Shown here: piece after piece, positions 46,005-52,824 of the stretch
Layout: each line of letters begins with the position of its first letter
Numbering within the stretch: the stretch's first letter is position 1
Assembly (NCBI RefSeq): GCF_004355185.1
Contig: NZ_CP037922.1
Location: 1,612,001 to 1,676,000 of the forward strand
From: Hymenobacter radiodurans
GTDB taxonomy: Bacteria; Bacteroidota; Bacteroidia; Cytophagales; Hymenobacteraceae
Length of the DNA: 64,000 bases
Direction: 5' to 3'
Translations under genes and position numbers: made by a program
Notes under the pieces: generated by a model
Told to the model about the DNA's origin: nothing
Databases searched by the model: none
Seen by the model: the letters and a program-made list of their open reading frames with translations, nothing else

Positions 46005-47285
46005 ATGTCCAACCGTAATAAAACCGTATCCCGCCAAGCGCTGGATACCCAACAAGCCCTAGAAGCTTTATCGCGGCACGCTGATCGGCGCAAGTGGTCG
46101 GCTAGGCAGCAAATAGACTTTCTCTTTTCTTGTGCTACTATCCAGGAGTTGCACGCCCAAGTTTCGGCCGATTCGCCTTTGGCGCTACGCTACCAACACT
46201 GGGTAATGGGCCGCAACGCTACGGACCGGCACCGCACCCGCCAAGCCTTGCTGACCTTGGCCGATAAGCGCACCGTTCTGCTGGAGCGCCCGGAAATGGT
46301 GCCGGCCCTGAGCGTACTAACCACTTACTACTTAAGCCGGCAGCGCGACCTGGCCGACTGGCAACCCCGGACGCGCAACGTGTATCGGCAACTGGAAAGC
46401 TTGGTGCGCCACCTCTTCGATGGCTACGGCGACGTACCCGGCTGGGTGCTGGAATCCTGGGCCACGGGCGAGCTAACCTGCGGCGGCGTCAATTTGGCCG
46501 AGCTGACCATTCATTTGGGCAACGGTCGGTCGTTGCGCAGCTTCTCTGGTCAGCCCCGGTCCATCACCAAAAAGCTGGAGCACGCCATGCGCCAGGCGCC
46601 GGCGGGCTGCACCTATATCGAAGCCTTACGCTATGCTCAGTTGGCGTGTCGGGGCGCGCTGGAGTGGATCGGGCCGGTGCTGCAAACCGCCTGGAGCCGC
46701 ACGGTAGGTCCCGATGACGACTTCTGGCTGGATCTGGTCGACCTTTTTGCCACTACACCCATGGTCGACCCGCAGCAGTTCGGGCCGGTGTGCGACTGGA
46801 TTCATCACAAGCGCACCGTGGGCATCGGCGACGAGCCGCCCCAGCCGGGTTTTTCCCTGAAAGGCCGCTCCATGGCTAGTCTGCTGGCGCAAACGGAGCA
46901 GTGGCACCGAAGCCTGGGCCTGCTGCGGCGTCACGCTGGGCACCTGCTCTCGGCTACCTGGAACCCGCTGCCAGTGAGTGACTTCACCAGTGGCGACGAC
47001 CAGCGGGTGGTCATTACCCAACTGCGCACCTACGGGCAGTTGGTGGATGAGGGCAACGCCTTGCGACACTGCGTGGCTTCCTATCTGCAATCCTGCCAGA
47101 AAGGGCGTTGCAGCATCTTTTCGCTGAGGCTGGATGGTGCCCGTGCCATCACGCTGGAAGTGCAGCACAACCGCACTATTGTGCAGGCAAAGGGCCGCTA
47201 CAACCGCGCTCTGGCCGATAATGAGCGGTTTTGGGTGACGCGCTGGGCTACTGAAGCTCAACTCACGCTCTCCAAGCATTTGTAA
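46005..47285 (+). CDS. PcfJ-domain protein
   Basis: 426 residues, soluble. The C-terminal third carries the PcfJ-like core: ALRHCVASYLQSCQKGRCSI then FSLRLDGARAITLEV, with conserved His and Cys. It then continues VQAKGRYNRALADNERFWV. The N-terminal two thirds are helical and rich in Arg, His and Leu, without a known domain. PcfJ proteins were first named from a plasmid conjugation locus; their activity is unknown. The gene is 67 bases upstream of the TROVE gene in the same orientation, so the two are probably cotranscribed, pointing to an RNA-related role. Confidence 0.8.
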   Translation: MSNRNKTVSRQALDTQQALEALSRHADRRKWSARQQIDFLFSCATIQELHAQVSADSPLALRYQHWVMGRNATDRHRTRQALLTLADKRTVLLERPEMVPALSVLTTYYLSRQRDLADWQPRTRNVYRQLESLVRHLFDGYGDVPGWVLESWATGELTCGGVNLAELTIHLGNGRSLRSFSGQPRSITKKLEHAMRQAPAGCTYIEALRYAQLACRGALEWIGPVLQTAWSRTVGPDDDFWLDLVDLFATTPMVDPQQFGPVCDWIHHKRTVGIGDEPPQPGFSLKGRSMASLLAQTEQWHRSLGLLRRHAGHLLSATWNPLPVSDFTSGDDQRVVITQLRTYGQLVDEGNALRHCVASYLQSCQKGRCSIFSLRLDGARAITLEVQHNRTIVQAKGRYNRALADNERFWVTRWATEAQLTLSKHL

Positions 47286-47352: not shown

Positions 47353-48873
47353 ATGCGCTTCAACCTTACTCTTCGCAAAGCTACTACTACCAACCACGAG
47401 GGCGCTGCGGCCTTCGCTCTCACTCCCCAGTTGGAGTTGTACGCCGCCGTAGCCACTGCCGCCCTCAGCGACCAGTTCTACGAAACCGCCGACACCCGCT
47501 TGCTCCGCTTGCGCGAGTTGGTGGCCCGCAACGACCCCGAGTTTGTGGCCCGCTTGGCGGTATATGCCCGCGAGCAGCTGTACTTGCGCACCGTACCCTT
47601 GGTGCTCACCGTGGAGCTGGCCCGCCTGCACCGCGGCGACAACCTGGTAAGCCGCTTGGTGGCCCGAGTGGTACAGCGCGCCGACGAAATCACGGAGTTG
47701 CTGGCCTTCTACGCCCAAGCCAACGAGCGCGACGGGGTGAAAACCCTCAACCGCCTCTCCAAGCAGCTCCAGAAAGGGTTAGCCCTGGCCTTCAACCGCT
47801 TCGACGGCTACCAGCTGGCCAAGTACGACCGCGCCGGTCGGGTGCGCCTCCGCGACGCATTGTTTCTGGTGCACCCCACGCCCCGAAATGCGGAGCAGCA
47901 AGTCTTGTTCGACCAGCTCGTGCAGGGTACGCTGCCCACGCCTTACACTTGGGAAACCGAGTTGTCGGCCTTGGGGCAGCAGCGCTTTGCTTCGGCATCG
48001 GAGCGTAAGGATGCCTTCTGCTCGGCTTGGGAAACGTTAGTTGGAAGTGGCAAGTTGGGCTATATGGCCTTGCTGCGCAACCTGCGCAACATCCTAGAAG
48101 CCGACGTGTCGGCGGAGGTGGTGGAGCAGGTGTGTGCCCGCCTTACCGACCAAGTGGCGGTGGCGCGCTCCAAGCAGTTGCCCTTCCGCTTCCTGGCCGC
48201 CTACCGCGAGGTCCTGACCGTACAGTCGGGCTACGTGGCGGTGGTGTTGGAAGCGCTGGAAACGGCTATTGCCCACAGCGCGGCCAACCTGCGCGGCTTC
48301 GACGCCGGTACCCGCGTACTGGTGGCCTGCGACGTGTCGGGCTCGATGCAGCAACCCATATCAGCGCGCAGCAAAGTGTTGCTCTACGACGTGGGCCTGG
48401 TGCTCGCCATGTTGTTGCAGAGCCGTTGCAGCCATGTAACCACCGGCATGTTCGGTGATACGTGGAAGCGCATCAGCCTGCCCCGCGGCCGGGTGTTGCA
48501 AAACGTGCAGGAGTTCTACCGCCGCGAAGGCGAGGTAGGCTACAGCACCAACGGCTACTTGGTTGTCCAAGACTTGGTGCAGCGCCGCGAAGTGGTGGAC
48601 AAGGTGATGCTTTTTACCGACGCCCAACTCTGGAACAGCACCGGTGACGGTAACACGCTGGCCCGAGCCTGGAGCGACTACCGCCGCACCGTAGCACCCA
48701 ACGCTCGTCTGTACCTGTTCGACTTGGCTGGCCACGGCACAACTCCCCTGGAGGTGCGCGCCGACCACGGCGTCGCCCTGATTGCGGGTTGGTCGGATAA
48801 GGTGTTCGACGTGCTGCAAGCCCTGGAAAACGGCGAGTCGGCCCTGGCTGAAATAGAGAAAATTGATTTGTAA
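47353..48873 (+). CDS. rsr: TROVE domain protein (bacterial Ro60 orthologue, Rsr)
   Basis: 506 residues. Residues 1-300 form the helical TROVE (HEAT-like) ring (RLRELVARNDPEFVARLAVY, VYAREQLYLRTVPLVLTVEL). The C-terminal von Willebrand A domain has the MIDAS motif DVSGSMQQP near residue 327, STNGY and FTDAQLWNS. Ro60 binds misfolded RNAs and Y RNAs, and in bacteria a Y RNA can tether it to PNPase. Here it is followed immediately by an array of Y-RNA-like genes and two RtcB ligase genes, the expected genomic neighbourhood. It follows the PcfJ gene by 67 bases, with a C6 motif copy between them. Confidence 0.92.
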   Translation: MRFNLTLRKATTTNHEGAAAFALTPQLELYAAVATAALSDQFYETADTRLLRLRELVARNDPEFVARLAVYAREQLYLRTVPLVLTVELARLHRGDNLVSRLVARVVQRADEITELLAFYAQANERDGVKTLNRLSKQLQKGLALAFNRFDGYQLAKYDRAGRVRLRDALFLVHPTPRNAEQQVLFDQLVQGTLPTPYTWETELSALGQQRFASASERKDAFCSAWETLVGSGKLGYMALLRNLRNILEADVSAEVVEQVCARLTDQVAVARSKQLPFRFLAAYREVLTVQSGYVAVVLEALETAIAHSAANLRGFDAGTRVLVACDVSGSMQQPISARSKVLLYDVGLVLAMLLQSRCSHVTTGMFGDTWKRISLPRGRVLQNVQEFYRREGEVGYSTNGYLVVQDLVQRREVVDKVMLFTDAQLWNSTGDGNTLARAWSDYRRTVAPNARLYLFDLAGHGTTPLEVRADHGVALIAGWSDKVFDVLQALENGESALAEIEKIDL

Positions 48874-48884
48874 ACCTGAGTACC

Positions 48885-49019
48885 GAGAGGGGAGAAGTGC
48901 GCTGGCCACGGCCACAAAGTGCACGCTTGAAATCTCCCTTCTCACTCTCAGATCAACCCTTAAACCCAACAGTCGGGGGCCTAAATGCACAGCCAAACGG
49001 GCTGGGCCTGCTCCCGACT
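48885..49019 (+). ncRNA. Structured region between the TROVE gene and the Y RNA array
   Basis: Two hairpins follow the TROVE stop. The first, 48885-48949, pairs GAGAG and GAGAAG with CTTCTC and CTCTC and encloses an inner GTGC/GCAC and TGGCC/GGCCA stem. The second, 48971-49019, pairs AGTCGGG with CCCGACT. Neither carries the conserved internal-loop sequences of the five Y RNAs, so I cannot say whether this is an extra RNA gene or a transcript 3' end. Confidence 0.4.
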
Positions 49020-49030
49020 ATTTGGAAACC

Positions 49031-49173
49031 AACCTATAGGCAAGGTGCCGTAGATGGGCGTTACTTCGTCGGTGAATCAGGCGGCCTTCGGGCTACCTGT
49101 TAGGGTTCGAATCCCGCTGGGGGCTTTTTGTCGCCCAGACACGCCTACCGCTGTTGCCCTTGCTGCTAGGGTT
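49031..49173 (+). ncRNA. Y RNA-like gene A (class I), with T-arm-like hairpin
   Basis: Outer stem: AACCTA (49031-49036) and GCAAGG (49040-49045) pair with CCTTGC (49158-49163) and TAGGGTT. The internal loop has UGCCGUA on the 5' side (49046-49052) and CUGUUGC on the 3' side (49151-49157). The inner stem TGGGCG (49055-49060) pairs with CGCCCA (49132-49137). The apical part holds a UUCG-closed hairpin (GGCC UUCG GGCT) and a T-arm-like GGG-TTCGAAT-CCC at 49103-49115. No D arm is visible. A motif copy with G5 lies in the apical region, so the RNA could also terminate internally. Confidence 0.6.
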
Positions 49174-49179
49174 GGTTGA

Positions 49180-49330
49180 TATATCCCGCCGGGTGTCGTC
49201 GGGTAGCATTTCTTCGGGTCGCGGGTTCGATTCCTGCCTTTCGCCTACCGCTCCAGGCGGCGAAAGTAGCTCAGTTGGTAGAGCAGAATGGCTTCGGCCG
49301 TGCTTCCCATTTTTTACCCCGTTTGGTATA
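49180..49330 (+). ncRNA. Y RNA-like gene B (class II), with permuted tRNA mimic (YrlA-like)
   Basis: Y stem: CGGGT pairs with ACCCCG (bulged C). The internal loop is GUCGUC (49195-49200) on the 5' side opposite a U-run, and the inner stem GGGTAGCA (49201-49208) pairs with TGCTTCCC (49301-49308). The apical module is a permuted tRNA: T arm GCGGG-TTCGATT-CCTGC (49221-49237), acceptor 3' strand CTTTCGCC (49238-49245), a 13-base loop, acceptor 5' strand GGCGAAAG (49259-49266), then U8-A9 and the D arm GCTC-AGTTGGTA-GAGC (49269-49284). There is no anticodon arm; the Y stem takes its place. This matches the architecture of bacterial YrlA RNAs. Confidence 0.8.
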
Positions 49331-49341
49331 CATAAAAGTAC

Positions 49342-49485
49342 CTCGTTGGGTGCCGTAGCCTAGCCTTACTTCGATTCAGATTCGCCGGGTCGGGGGTTCG
49401 ATTCCCTCTCGTCAGCCTTCGGGCTGGCGGTAGCTCAGTTGGTTAGAGCAGGTCAGTTGGCTGGGCGCCTTGTTGCCCCAATGAG
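49342..49485 (+). ncRNA. Y RNA-like gene C (class I), with UUCG-closed permuted tRNA mimic (YrlA-like)
   Basis: Outer stem CTCGTTGGG (49342-49350) pairs over nine bases with CCCAATGAG (49477-49485). The internal loop is UGCCGUA (49351-49357) opposite a strand ending CUUGUUGC. The inner stem GCCTAGCC (49358-49365) pairs with GGCTGGGC (49459-49466). Apical module: T arm GGGGG-TTCGATT-CCCTC (49392-49408), acceptor 3' strand GTCAGCC (49411-49417), UUCG tetraloop, acceptor 5' strand GGCTGGC (49422-49428), then the D arm GCTC-AGTTGGTTA-GAGC. The acceptor stem ends are thus fused by a tetraloop, as expected for a tRNA mimic that cannot be aminoacylated. Confidence 0.82.
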
Positions 49486-49487
49486 TA

Positions 49488-49581
49488 ACCGAGCCGGAAG
49501 CGGTGTCATCGGGTAGTATTCCTTCGTTCTGAAAATACGCAATCGGACTGCCCACTTTTTTACCCGTTTTCGTGCCTCGGT
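49488..49581 (+). ncRNA. Y RNA-like gene D (class II), short, no tRNA mimic
   Basis: Outer stem: ACCGAG and CGGAAGCGGT (49488-49504) pair with ACCCGTTTTCG and CTCGGT (49562-49581), again with one bulged C, as in RNA B. Internal loop GUCAUC (49505-49510) lies opposite ACUUUUUU. Inner stem GGGTAGT (49511-49517) pairs with ACTGCCC (49547-49553). The apical loop is about 29 bases with the conserved CUUCG but no T or D arm. Confidence 0.7.
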
Positions 49582-49584
49582 AAA

Positions 49585-49705
49585 TTGGCAATTTCATCTA
49601 GTCGGATGCCGTACGTCCGCGTTCCTTCGACCTGTCACGTCGGGTGTTACGCAAGTACCCCACAGACGCGGACGGTCTGTTGCTCCGGCTTTGCCAAACC
49701 TTTTT
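49585..49705 (+). ncRNA. Y RNA-like gene E (class I), ending in an intrinsic terminator
   Basis: Outer stems: TTGGCAA (49585-49591) pairs with TTGCCAA (49691-49697), and GTCGGA (49601-49606) with TCCGGC (49684-49689). Internal loop UGCCGUA (49607-49613) lies opposite GUCUGUUGC (49675-49683). Inner stem CGTCCGCGT (49614-49622) pairs perfectly with ACGCGGACG (49666-49674). The apical loop contains CUUCG and a small GGGT/TACCC hairpin but no tRNA arms. The outer stem runs into five T (49701-49705), so this RNA ends the array. The RtcB start codon is 20 bases further on. Confidence 0.75.
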
Positions 49706-49725: not shown

Positions 49726-51126
49726 ATGGCTCAACAATTACGCGGCAACGACCTCCGTCAACTCGGCTTTCCCGAGGGCCGCGCCATCGGTCTCGCGCTA
49801 GCGCAATTGCAGCGCAAGCATCTCAAACGACTCTCGCTTACCGCTCAGCTCACGCTCTTACAGCAAATTCTGACCTCTCCCATGGACTTTGTTACGCACC
49901 TCGATTGGAGCCACGTGGCAGCCGCGTTGCTCCCACCACCTTCGCGCCATATCGAATTGGTGGCGCGCAAACCCTACGCCCTCTATGGGGCCGAACACAT
50001 TGAAGCCGGCGCCCTGCACCAAATGGACACGGCCATGAAATTGCCTGTGACGGTAGCGGGTGCCCTCATGCCCGACGCCCACCACGGCTACGGCCTGCCC
50101 ATTGGCGGCGTGCTGGCCACCGACAACGCCGTCATTCCTTACGCCGTGGGCGTAGACATTGGCTGCCGGATGGCGCTATCGGTCTTCAATTTGCCTCCCA
50201 AGCACCTCACCCAGCGGGTGCAGGAGTTGCAAAAACTGCTCTTGGACAACACCCGTTTCGGCAACCGGACTGGCTTTCAGCACGGCAAGAAAATGGGCCA
50301 CGAGGTACTAGACCGGGACGAGTTTCGCGACATTCCGTTTCTGCGCAACAAGCAGGCAACTGCCGCCGAGCAAATCGGGACATCGGGCTCTGGCAACCAC
50401 TTCGTCGAATTCGGCATCGTAGATATCACAGATCCGACGAACGAGATGGGCGTTCCGGTAGGTCAGTATGTGGGTTTGTTGTCGCACTCCGGCTCGCGGG
50501 GCCTGGGCGCGGGCGTGGCCAACCACTACACCAAGTTGGCCATGGAAAACTGCCAGCTGCCCTCTGAAGCCAAGCACTTAGCCTGGCTTTCCCTCGACGG
50601 GGAATTGGGGCAGGAATACTGGGCGGCCATGAACTTGGCGGGCGCGTACGCCTCGGCCTGCCACGAGCACATTCACCAGCGGATGGCGAAAGCCCTGGGC
50701 GAGCGGCCCTTGGCGAAAGTGGAAAACCACCACAACTTCGCCTGGCGTGAAAAGCTAGCCGACAGCCGAGAAGTGATTGTGCACCGCAAGGGCGCCACGC
50801 CCGCCGGCAAAGGCGTGCTCGGCATCATCCCCGGCTCGATGACGGCACCTGGCTTTATCGTGCGCGGCCGGGGCGTGGCTGATTCCCTGGGTTCGGCCTC
50901 GCACGGGGCCGGTCGCCTCATGTCCCGCACGCGGGCCAAGCAGGAGCTAAGCGAGTCGGCGGTGCGCCAGCACCTCACCGACCACGGCGTGGTGCTGCAA
51001 GGCGGCGGCCTCGACGAAGCGCCCATGGCCTACAAGGACATCCACGCCGTGATGCAAAGCCAGCAAGAGCTAGTAGATGTGCTCGGCTCCTTTACACCGA
51101 AAATCGTGCGCATGGACGGTGCGTAG
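49726..51126 (+). CDS. rtcB: RtcB family RNA ligase, copy 1
   Basis: 466 residues from the ATG at 49726; the frame extends upstream into the Y RNA array and is not a real extension. RtcB joins RNA 2',3'-cyclic phosphate or 3'-phosphate ends to 5'-OH ends using GTP and manganese. Family motifs: PDAHHGYGLPIGGV, VDIGCRM (metal Cys, near residue 147), GSGNHFVEFG, SHSGSRG, HHNFAW and SASHGAGR with the guanylylated His near residue 393. It follows the Y RNA array with about 20 bases of spacing, and a motif-based terminator follows. Confidence 0.92.
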   Translation: MAQQLRGNDLRQLGFPEGRAIGLALAQLQRKHLKRLSLTAQLTLLQQILTSPMDFVTHLDWSHVAAALLPPPSRHIELVARKPYALYGAEHIEAGALHQMDTAMKLPVTVAGALMPDAHHGYGLPIGGVLATDNAVIPYAVGVDIGCRMALSVFNLPPKHLTQRVQELQKLLLDNTRFGNRTGFQHGKKMGHEVLDRDEFRDIPFLRNKQATAAEQIGTSGSGNHFVEFGIVDITDPTNEMGVPVGQYVGLLSHSGSRGLGAGVANHYTKLAMENCQLPSEAKHLAWLSLDGELGQEYWAAMNLAGAYASACHEHIHQRMAKALGERPLAKVENHHNFAWREKLADSREVIVHRKGATPAGKGVLGIIPGSMTAPGFIVRGRGVADSLGSASHGAGRLMSRTRAKQELSESAVRQHLTDHGVVLQGGGLDEAPMAYKDIHAVMQSQQELVDVLGSFTPKIVRMDGA

Positions 51127-51187: not shown

Positions 51188-51287
51188 GACCGTCATGCCG
51201 AACGGAGTGAAGCATCTCGCTCACGCATTTAGATTAGTAATCTTATGACCGCGAGCGAGATGCTTCATTCCGTTCGGCATGACGGTC
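51188..51287. repeat. REP-like palindromic repeat, copy 4
   Basis: The outer arms extend to GACCGTCATGCCGAACGGAG on the left and its near complement on the right (TTCCGTTCGGCATGACGGTC). The inner part GAAGCATCTCGC/GCGAGATGCTTC is shared with the other copies. It lies between the two rtcB genes. Confidence 0.85.
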
Positions 51288-51387: not shown

Positions 51388-52824
51388 ATGGCCAAAGCGA
51401 CCAACAAACTCCACAGCAAGGACCTGCGCCAGATCGGCTTTACCAACGACCAGCACATCAGCCTCGCCCTCGATATTCTCGACCAACGTGAGCTACGCCG
51501 ACTCGATAAGGGCAGCGCGCAAGCCTTGCTACAGGAAATAAAAAACGACCCGTTCAAGTACCTACGCGACGAAAACTGGCGGCCTCTCGCTGAGCAGCTT
51601 GTGCCCCAGCCGTCGCGCGATGTGGCCCTCAATCCAGAAATTAAAGACTACCGCCGCTACGGCGAGGCTTTTATTGAAGATGGCGCCCGCAAGCAAATGG
51701 ACACTGCCATGCAGTTGCCCGTCACAATTGACGGGGCGCTCATGCCTGATGCGCACCAGGGCTACGGCCTGCCCATCGGCGGCGTGTTGGCGGTCGATAA
51801 CGCGGTGATTCCCTACGGTGTGGGAATGGATATAGGTTGCCGCATGGCGCTGTCCATCTTCGACATGCCAGCTAGCTACTTGAACAAGCACAGCCAGGAT
51901 TTGCGCAAGCTGCTGCTGGAGCACACCAAGTTTGGCAACAAAGAAGTGTTCAAGAAACCCTTCACCGACGACCCCATTTTCGAGCGGCCGGAGTTTCGCG
52001 AAATCGGGGTGGTGCGGCAAAAGCGCGATTCGGCAATTTCTCAGATGGGTAGCTCCGGCTCGGGCAACCACTTTGTGGAATTTGGGCTAGTAGATATTAC
52101 CGATCCGAATAATGAAATGGGCGTGCCCATTGGGCAGTACGTCGGCTTACTGTCGCACAGCGGCTCGCGAGGATTAGGAGCAGCCGTGGCCCAGCATTTC
52201 ACCAAAGTAGCCATGGAAAAATGCCCCCTGCCGCCGCAGGCGCGGCATTTGGCGTGGTTGTCTTTGGATTCGCAGGAAGGGCAAGAGTACTGGCGCGCCA
52301 TGAATCTAGCGGGTGACTACGCCTCGGCCTGCCACCACGATATTCACCGCCGACTCAGCAAAGCCTTAGGTAATAAACCGCTGGCCCAAGTAGAAAACCA
52401 CCACAACTTCGCCTGGCGCGAAAAGCTGCCCGATGGCCGTGAAGCCATTGTACACCGCAAGGGAGCCACGCCCGCTGGCAAAGGCGTGCTCGGCGTGATT
52501 CCGGGCTCGATGACCGCGCCCGGCTTCATCGTGCGGGGCCGCGGCGAACGGGACTCGCTCCAATCGGCTTCCCATGGCGCCGGGCGCCGCCTCAGTCGCA
52601 CCCAGGCCAAAGCGCAGATAGGAGAGGGCGACATGCGCCGCCAACTGCGCGACCACGGCATAGAGCTAATCGGCGGCGGCCTCGACGAAGCGCCCGCCGC
52701 CTACAAAGACATCCACCAGGTAATGGCCCACCAGCGCGACTTGGTAGATGTGCTGGGCACGTTCACGCCTAAAGTAGTACGTATGGATGCGGGCGGCGGT
52801 AGAGGGAAAGGGCGAGGGGAGTAG
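51388..52824 (+). CDS. rtcB: RtcB family RNA ligase, copy 2
   Basis: 478 residues, clearly a paralogue of the preceding gene, with the same order of motifs: PDAHQGYGLPIGGV, MDIGCRM, GSSGSGNHFVEFG, SHSGSRG, HHNFAW and SASHGAGR (His near residue 396). It differs by a longer N-terminus, an insert after the GNKEVFKKPF region and a Gly/Arg/Lys-rich C-terminal tail (GGGRGKGRGE) that could bind RNA. It is separated from copy 1 by a terminator and a REP-like repeat, so it may be regulated independently. A G6 motif copy follows the stop. Confidence 0.92.
   Translation: MAKATNKLHSKDLRQIGFTNDQHISLALDILDQRELRRLDKGSAQALLQEIKNDPFKYLRDENWRPLAEQLVPQPSRDVALNPEIKDYRRYGEAFIEDGARKQMDTAMQLPVTIDGALMPDAHQGYGLPIGGVLAVDNAVIPYGVGMDIGCRMALSIFDMPASYLNKHSQDLRKLLLEHTKFGNKEVFKKPFTDDPIFERPEFREIGVVRQKRDSAISQMGSSGSGNHFVEFGLVDITDPNNEMGVPIGQYVGLLSHSGSRGLGAAVAQHFTKVAMEKCPLPPQARHLAWLSLDSQEGQEYWRAMNLAGDYASACHHDIHRRLSKALGNKPLAQVENHHNFAWREKLPDGREAIVHRKGATPAGKGVLGVIPGSMTAPGFIVRGRGERDSLQSASHGAGRRLSRTQAKAQIGEGDMRRQLRDHGIELIGGGLDEAPAAYKDIHQVMAHQRDLVDVLGTFTPKVVRMDAGGGRGKGRGE

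Follow-up and report, generated by a model that had tools for sequence, protein, structure and literature searches.

Tandem Y-RNA-like sequences between the Ro60 and RtcB genes of Hymenobacter radiodurans carry tRNA-like tips and may act as anticodon decoys

Introduction

One locus of Hymenobacter radiodurans bears on the role of bacterial Ro60 and Y RNAs beside the RNA ligase RtcB. In the window analysed here, a stretch of 64,000 nucleotides (nt) of contig NZ_CP037922.1 (positions 1,612,001 to 1,676,000, forward strand) whose own numbering is used throughout, five tandem Y-RNA-like sequences lie on the sense strand between a gene for a Ro60-like TROVE protein and two RtcB genes. What are these sequences, and what might their tips do? 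Our favoured reading, held with slightly less than even confidence, is that they encode predicted small RNAs which Ro60 would hold by a basal stem, that their tips are tRNA look-alikes, and that these probably serve as decoys for RNases that attack anticodons. A first-pass annotation, made from the sequence alone, had proposed five Y-RNA-like genes in two alternating classes. Most of the novelty lies in the apical domains, which it had left unread.

Results

An ordered array of Y-RNA-like copies

All five motif sites of the first-pass annotation were recovered on the sense strand, with the T of TGYCRT at 49046, 49194, 49351, 49504 and 49607. The copies are as follows.

Copy A: 49033..49169, + strand; class I stem with TGCCGTA at 49046-49052 and linker GCTGTTGC ending at 49157
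Copy B: 49186..49324, + strand; class II stem with TGTCGTC at 49194-49200, linker ATTTTTTAC ending at 49317 and a bulged C
Copy C: 49342..49485, + strand; class I stem with TGCCGTA at 49351-49357 and linker GCCTTGTTGC ending at 49476
Copy D: 49497..49571, + strand; short copy, class II stem with TGTCATC at 49504-49510 and a U-run linker ending at 49563
Copy E: 49600..49690, + strand; short copy, class I stem with TGCCGTA at 49607-49613 and linker GTCTGTTGC ending at 49683

The two linker classes described earlier do exist. The 3' linker is CYUGUUGC in copies A, C and E, and a U-run-AC followed by a bulged-C stem in copies B and D. The tip of copy A has apical hairpins and a T-loop-like TTCGAAT (49106-49112) without a D arm. 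The tip of copy B has a T arm, a closed acceptor-like helix and a D arm, as in the Y RNA family YrlA, without an anticodon arm.

From 171 TROVE relatives, 80 loci were kept for comparison. Of these, 44 form a Hymenobacter group (one is titled Solirubrum, and two are both named BT442), which makes 45 with the window; the other 36 are mostly Bacteroidota by title (one is titled Williamsia, one Limnohabitans). The loose 5' motif TGYCRTN-(6 to 12 nt)-YTYCG occurs 286 times in sense and 0 times in antisense in the TROVE-RtcB gaps of the 45 loci (84,950 bases), and the spacer from TGYCRTN to the CTTCG-like end is 11 nt at 284 of the 286 sites. Beyond these gaps there were 11 matches per 686,336 strand-bases. 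The motif is common in itself, with 2 sense and 5 antisense matches elsewhere in the window and 133 forward and 134 reverse matches genome-wide. Its unusual features are the clustering, the single strand and the fixed spacer, not rarity. In the 36 other loci, within 4 kb after TROVE, sense matches number 0 to 10 and antisense matches 0 or 1. A narrower motif (TGYCGTA-N9-TNCTTCG; rows tallied by hand) was counted in whole genomes of the genus. Of the 86 genomes that have a TROVE match, 82 contain at least three sites, as does 1 of the 34 that lack one. The array adjoins the Ro60/TROVE gene, the location expected of Y RNAs.

All 286 copies were clustered into types; the thresholds and type names are our own. 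Many copies are orthologues, so that copy counts given here are not counts of events. The types recur in the order A, B, C (at least one), sometimes A and C again, D, E and often a final C-like F, and the window array holds exactly one each of A, B, C, D and E. A number of five copies had been thought unusual; this was not borne out, since copy number ranges from 2 to 8 across the 45 arrays and a Rhizobium plasmid also has five copies of the YrlA motif. Class II linkers fall in types B and D in 31 of 35 cases, but class I linkers also occur in 7 of 21 B and 5 of 27 D copies (the class was unassigned for 18 copies). The proposed I-II-I-II-I alternation is correct for the window, but it is found in that array only (1 of 45) and is not a general feature. 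Because only the window alternates and the types recur in order, the alternation is a by-product of the types kept. Judged by their sequences, the arrays are ordered sets of distinct predicted RNA types, conserved across the genus.

The basal stem covaries

Compensatory pairing of the stems had also been claimed from the window alone, and it stands far above shuffled expectation. At 155 of the 286 sites an exact TGTTGC follows downstream, and for these, partners were not chosen by pairing. The outer arms paired at 7.10 of 8 positions, compared with 4.94 (sd 0.08) with shuffled 3' arms, and the inner arms at 7.30 of 8, compared with 5.36 (sd 0.09; best of four linker lengths, in the control likewise). 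When arms were exchanged inside the same array, these values were 4.75 and 5.15. A pairing-maximising partner search was rejected as a test because it found a partner at all 286 sites; it served to set copy ends for the clustering and for excising apical domains.

Pairs were also counted in alignments that took in 36 of 36 E, 26 of 27 D, 20 of 21 B and 24 of the 79 C/F copies, with type A unaligned. The proportion of paired cells was 93.0% in type E (alignment A1; shuffled 84.0%), 90.8% in type D (75.1%), 94.2% in type B (A3; 74.3%) and 90.8% in type C (A4; 76.3%), and sliding the structures along the alignments left just 31-55% of cells paired. The count of pairs with two-sided changes in type D was equalled by 30 of 500 shuffles, and the other type D measures by none. 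Single-sequence folding gave z values of -0.85, -0.82, -2.60, -2.03 and -2.21 for A to E; this is weak evidence, and A and B are thermodynamically unremarkable. The 5' and 3' ends form a stem with a conserved internal loop, as in Y RNAs, with covariation in the aligned copies, and the structure of the Y-RNA-like copies is well supported.

Types C and F resemble permuted tRNAs

In tRNA numbering, the tip of copy C reads as follows.

49372..49386, + strand: anticodon arm, CGA-TTCAGAT-TCG (nt 29-41) and CC (nt 42-43)
49387..49452, + strand: remainder, beginning with the variable loop GGGTC and the T arm (49392-49408)
49409-49430: loop-closed acceptor helix, followed by U8-A9 at 49431-49432
49433-49449: D arm, followed by A26 at 49450 and GG (nt 27-28) at 49451-49452

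All five anticodon-stem pairs are possible in this copy, the GG at 49451-49452 pairing with the CC at 49385-49386. In types C and F, the segment from CUUCG to the T arm consists of a three-pair stem with a 7-nt loop at nt 29-41, two bases and a 5-nt variable loop. Because the anticodon stem is out of place in the MAFFT alignment A4 (41.7% paired), a register test was used instead. The 79 C/F copies comprise 73 testable ones and 6 that are too short. At the tRNA register the arm is present in 61 of the 73 (12 are unpaired); at shift +5 it is present in 30 of 79 and at the remaining shifts in 0 to 7, and loops of 5, 6, 8 or 9 nt gave 0 or 1. The 61 copies in which the upper three pairs form comprise 44 C and 17 F copies. 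U33 is conserved in 43 and 16 of them, respectively, and position 37 is mostly A in type C (40 copies) and mostly G in type F (14 copies).

The lower pairs, 27-43 and 28-42, form in 67 of 67 testable copies, compared with a mean of 37 and a maximum of 48 in 1000 deals of re-dealt partners. The combinations of 27-28/42-43 are GG/CC (45), CA/UG (19), UA/UA (2) and CG/UG (1). A26 is present in 66 of these 67 copies and all five anticodon-stem pairs form in 58. Types C and F therefore share a five-pair anticodon stem, U33, a purine at 37 (R37) and a 5-nt variable loop. Because nt 42-43 pair with the bases after A26 and the arm stands at the tRNA register, type C is, as predicted from sequence, a circularly permuted and nearly complete tRNA whose acceptor is capped by a loop and whose anticodon stem is interrupted by the Ro60 stem between nt 28 and 29. 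In the subtypes H5, H9 and H10, hairpins that look GNRA-like by eye often replace the anticodon arm.

ARAGORN, run on rotated modules, called 64 of 68 C/F copies and none of 17 B copies, 255 shuffled or 85 reversed modules. Shuffling nt 29-48 alone still left 222 of 340 called, and a looser scan called even copy B. Calls after rotation were therefore rejected as proof of the anticodon arm; they attest the other arms more than this one, and we rely on the direct pair and loop tests.

Could C and F copies be precursors of functional permuted tRNAs, cut by RNase P at the acceptor loop and rejoined by RtcB, which adjoins the array? The order anticodon-T-acceptor-D resembles that of permuted tRNA genes in algae and one archaeon, where, in the portion of PMC3978253 drawn on here, the anticodon/T half precedes the acceptor/D half and the two are joined via the acceptor. 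In contrast, the Hymenobacter copies end on a Ro60-type stem, their acceptor helices vary and are not uniformly 7 bp, and the genome already has 38 normal isoacceptors. Read as a tRNA, copy C would have the anticodon CAG and a variable loop of 5 nt, whereas Leu tRNAs have a long variable arm. We consider such precursors very improbable.

Exact anticodon loops of real tRNAs

The 41 tRNA matches of this genome represent 38 isoacceptors, and the anticodon loops of these were sought in the excised apical domains. Exact loops with at least three closing pairs were found in 65 of 286 domains, whereas 200 dinucleotide shuffles gave a mean of 2.8 and a maximum of 7, reversed sequences 0 and reverse complements 1. 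With at least two closing pairs the count was 80 of 286 (shuffled 6.6, maximum 15; reverse complement 20). Three of the 65 matches (Pro-GGG in loci L050, L056 and L071) lie next to the anticodon position and, as positional artefacts, are best left out of the count; a fourth Pro-GGG match (L075) sits in the anticodon position. A looser test, for a 7-nt loop with U33 and R37 at CUUCG, gave 91 of 284 copies (shuffled 12.0, maximum 21) and, in the other loci, 26 of 112 (shuffled 4.1, maximum 10).

The loops with at least three pairs differ between types. Type E (n=36) has Asp(GUC) in 17 copies and Asn in 3, and the C/F group (n=79) has Lys(UUU) in 17, Pro in 7 (including the 3 discounted), Asn in 2, Gln in 2, His in 1 and Glu in 1. 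Type G (n=18) has Trp(CCA) in 5 and Cys in 2, and none of the 21 type B copies has such a loop. Type A (n=56) has Asn in 5; these five copies contain the entire 17-nt tRNA-Asn arm of this genome, UCUGA-CUGUUAA-UCAGA, stem letters included. Two copies of the window carry real loops.

49627..49643, + strand: anticodon-arm mimic of copy E, TCGAC-CTGTCAC-GTCGG, the exact tRNA-Asp(GUC) loop on five pairs
49529-49535, + strand: tRNA-Phe(GAA) loop CTGAAAA of copy D, behind a U.U mismatch and then three pairs

Across type E, 92.1% of cells in the arm are paired, and two of the five pairs have changed on both sides.

These loops might also suit aminoacyl-tRNA synthetases, which the tips would bind via the anticodon loop and so titrate or recruit. 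The exact loops on at least three pairs belong to Asp, Lys, Asn, Trp, Pro, Phe, Gln, Cys, His and Glu, and no Leu, Ser or Ala loop (11 of the 38 in the set) is closed by even two pairs in the 286 domains. The synthetases for Leu, Ser and Ala are not known to read the anticodon. Given the shared ancestry of the copies, it is nevertheless weak evidence that these three amino acids are missing, and charging is not expected because the acceptor ends are closed. We regard binding of synthetases as improbable.

A YrlA-like module

The Rfam model of YrlA (RF02553) matches the T-acceptor-D part of copy B at 35.7 bits (E 5.8e-6, 49213-49289) and of copy C at 30.5 bits (E 1.8e-4). Neither reaches the gathering score of 69 bits, nor does any match in the 39 genomes searched, the organism's own included. 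Below this cut-off the model also matches in 9 of 14 control genomes, so the weak matches alone prove little and were rejected as proof of family membership. The permuted T, acceptor and D arms are found in copies B and C only, and not in A, D and E.

The likeness to YrlA lies in the plan: a basal stem with a conserved internal loop, then a permuted T arm, a closed acceptor helix and a D arm, all adjoining TROVE and RtcB. The basal layout is GGCGAAUGC-8 nt-CUAC ... cUUGUCGCC in YrlA and GGUGYCGUA-8 nt-UUACUUCG ... CYUGUUGCC in the window. The letters of the basal motif are unlike, however, the full module is missing from copies A, D and E, and the Rfam model has no anticodon arm, which appears as a ~13-nt insertion in a Rhizobium copy. 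In class II the stem resembles that of eukaryotic Y RNAs, with its bulged C and U-rich internal loop, but no Rfam match to eukaryotic Y RNA is listed in the interval at E up to 10. No tRNA arms are known in eukaryotic Y RNAs. Excerpts of PMC8394870 describe the tRNA-like domain of YrlA as D, T and acceptor arms; the window array has the anticodon part that YrlA lacks. Provisionally, the array would take the tRNA mimicry of Y RNAs beyond these three arms, to include the anticodon arm and an almost complete permuted tRNA. No earlier report of anticodon-arm mimicry in Y RNAs was found in the open-access literature, as partly covered by titles and abstract openings, with the main Y RNA papers outside it.

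Similarly, the Salmonella rsr-yrlBA-rtcBA RNA-repair operon keeps Ro60, Y RNAs and RtcB together (PMC7790460, in part); it has two Y RNAs by name, compared with five here, where there are two RtcB genes. Taken together, synteny, the co-occurrence of motif and TROVE, covariation and the sub-threshold YrlA matches of B and C uphold the earlier assignment of Y-RNA-like genes beside TROVE. What that annotation overlooked was the tRNA-like tips of B and C, and its view that five copies are unusual is not supported, nor is alternation beyond the window.

The module also brings in the main rival of the decoy reading, namely that the Y RNAs are tethers or gates, as in the RYPER model. Ro60 would sit on the basal stem and the tips would dock PNPase, RNase P or tRNA-modifying enzymes, with the anticodon arms widening the set of partners. 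A role of Rsr and Y RNA with PNPase is known, and DusA and TruB act on YrlA, according to parts of PMC8394870 and PMC7790460. The YrlA-like module of B and C agrees with this, and U33, R37 and exact loops would fit enzymes that recognise anticodon arms as well. A tether alone leaves unexplained why part of the E and D copies have an anticodon loop but no other tRNA part, and why the triplets change frequently. We judge it possible, though less likely than not.

Modules beyond the genus and turnover of triplets

A scan for modules covered 41 loci, of which two are from plasmids, three from phages and 36 from genomes (chiefly Bacteroidota by title). It found 66 permuted T-acceptor-D modules in 34 of the 41 loci, after 24 modules that overlapped ARAGORN tRNA calls were dropped, probably including the module of a Xanthomonas phage. 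The two lower anticodon-stem pairs form in 56 of the 66 modules and all five in 19, of which 17 have U33 and 18 R37. By register, 20 modules fit at register 0, compared with 0 to 9 at other shifts.

The TROVE phages Caulobacter CcrColossus and Xanthomonas Olaya have an Asn(GUU) loop on five pairs, and part of the Olaya module is called tRNA-Asn by ARAGORN. Their modules are several and lie upstream of TROVE (Xanthomonas, L123:1790-2500; Caulobacter, L122:1400-2100), with one Asn(GUU) arm each. A Rhizobium plasmid with the order RtcR-TROVE-RtcB (L124:4053-4700) has five tandem copies of a CGAATGC motif and three Rfam YrlA matches, including a true YrlA at 95.1 bits, and one copy has a Trp(CCA) loop on four pairs. 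The basal layout of the Rhizobium YrlA (GGCGAAUGC, 8 nt, CUAC, 3' CUUGUCGCC) parallels that of the window given above. In four other loci (L083, L079, L076 and L094) the TROVE genes adjoin clusters of ordinary tRNA genes.

On the TROVE protein tree, a minimum of 17 changes of the type C triplet was counted among 36 species, and a minimum of 11 changes of the type F triplet among 23 (counts without a null, and excluding five species that have two type C copies). Turnover of the triplet with the frame of the arm kept fits changing targets. Frequent changes would also suit relics, that is, Y RNAs which arose from tRNA genes and kept anticodon arms as unselected remnants, and the T-acceptor-D module of B and C is common to tRNA. 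This origin of the arms is improbable: pairs 27-43 and 28-42 are kept in every testable C/F copy, and type E keeps its paired arm, with two-sided changes, without any other tRNA part.

Gene neighbourhood

The order of genes is PcfJ-like, TROVE/Ro60, the five-copy array, RtcB-1 and RtcB-2.

46005-47282: PcfJ-like gene (PF14284), directly upstream of the TROVE gene
47353..48870, + strand: Ro60-like TROVE protein gene, 506 amino acids (aa); Pfam TROVE E 3.3e-30, vWA_Ro60 E 5e-10
49726..51123, + strand: RtcB RNA ligase gene 1; Pfam RtcB E 8.4e-83
51388..52821, + strand: RtcB RNA ligase gene 2, a paralogue; Pfam RtcB E 1.1e-81

The TROVE protein is matched by the TROVE chains 9l5y/9kop of PDB (E 1.5e-30), its nearest named relatives are those of Hymenobacter sp. 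BT188 (94%) and H. qilianensis (92%), and the genome has one TROVE match. A divergent second TROVE gene (36% identity) occurs in one genome of the genus (G030:C16:76755-78185). In the window, the longest open reading frame inside the TROVE-RtcB gap is 69 aa. In another locus (L060:5650-6492) a gene of ~285 aa between TROVE and the Y RNA array encodes a microbial-type PARG (PF10021, E 1.4e-44), and reading frames resembling it by eye occur in seven more loci (L033, L035, L045, L047, L064, L065 and L070). PcfJ-like relatives are found in many loci, either upstream of TROVE or between the array and RtcB. Whole-region folding predicts two more hairpins, without the Y RNA motif, from the TROVE stop to copy A (48885-49019). 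Between the two RtcB genes (51191-51284) a 30-bp repeat (CGTCATGCCGAACGGAGTGAAGCATCTCGC) forms an inverted pair; a third and weaker copy lies at 1558-1587, and the repeat may be a mobile or REP-like palindrome.

Discussion

Our data indicate that covarying basal stems and tRNA parts with anticodon loops occur together in these arrays, and this combination leads to the prediction of a set of Ro60-held small RNAs. By analogy with the known pairing of Ro60 and Y RNA, the TROVE protein would bind the basal stem, and the tips would interact with proteins that read tRNA anticodons. We infer transcription of the copies, binding by TROVE and the decoy role. Three features led us to the decoy reading: the position of the array, with Ro60 on one side and two RtcB genes on the other; the anticodon hairpin or loop that some E and D copies keep without another tRNA part; and the change of triplets between species. 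In this mechanism the array would be transcribed as a set of small RNAs, and Ro60 would hold each by its basal stem while the tip poses as a tRNA. Under stress or during conflict, nucleases that attack the anticodon loop would bind to these Ro60-held mimics or cleave them. Cleaved tRNAs, and possibly cleaved mimics, would be resealed by the RtcB ligases encoded next to the array, and each RNA type would cover different tRNAs. Inhibition of an anticodon nuclease by the tRNA-like domain of YrlA has been raised as a possibility in part of PMC7790460.

Several observations weigh against the decoy reading. The same excerpts of PMC7790460 report that no YrlA fragments were detected, though YrlA is without an anticodon arm. 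An exact stem-closed loop is lacking in 221 of the 286 copies, and in type D the Phe(GAA) loop stands on at least three pairs in only 3 of 27 copies and occurs without the stem in 17 of 27. In the window only copy E, with five pairs, and copy D, behind its U.U mismatch, match real loops. The loop of copy C, UUCAGAU, is no loop of this genome (Leu CAG has UUCAGGC), and copies A and B hold no real anticodon loop. The minimum-energy fold of copy C (-62.9) differs from the tRNA-like fold (-55.9, without the two 27-28 pairs). Loop lengths of 9 and 11 are also in excess at CUUCG, and in the other loci at least as much as length 7, so that it is the loop letters and not length alone that speak for tRNA. 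Outside the genus, an exact loop on at least three pairs is found in 7 of 97 copies (tRNA-gene overlaps removed; shuffled mean 1.4, maximum 6). The frequent change of triplets also fits drift of a triplet that is not read.

A wider form of the decoy reading is more doubtful. Ro60 may carry a library of anticodon decoys, an ordered array in which each Y RNA mimics a tRNA of its own (across species Asp, Phe, Lys, Pro, Trp, Asn and others), with identities swapped between species as anticodon nucleases change and with resealing by RtcB. We put this forward as a speculative possibility; an Asn mimic of this kind is also present in some TROVE phages. Members with different anticodons would provide a specific and testable link between Ro60 ribonucleoproteins and tRNA damage, and each mimic prompts the question of which nuclease or enzyme reads it.

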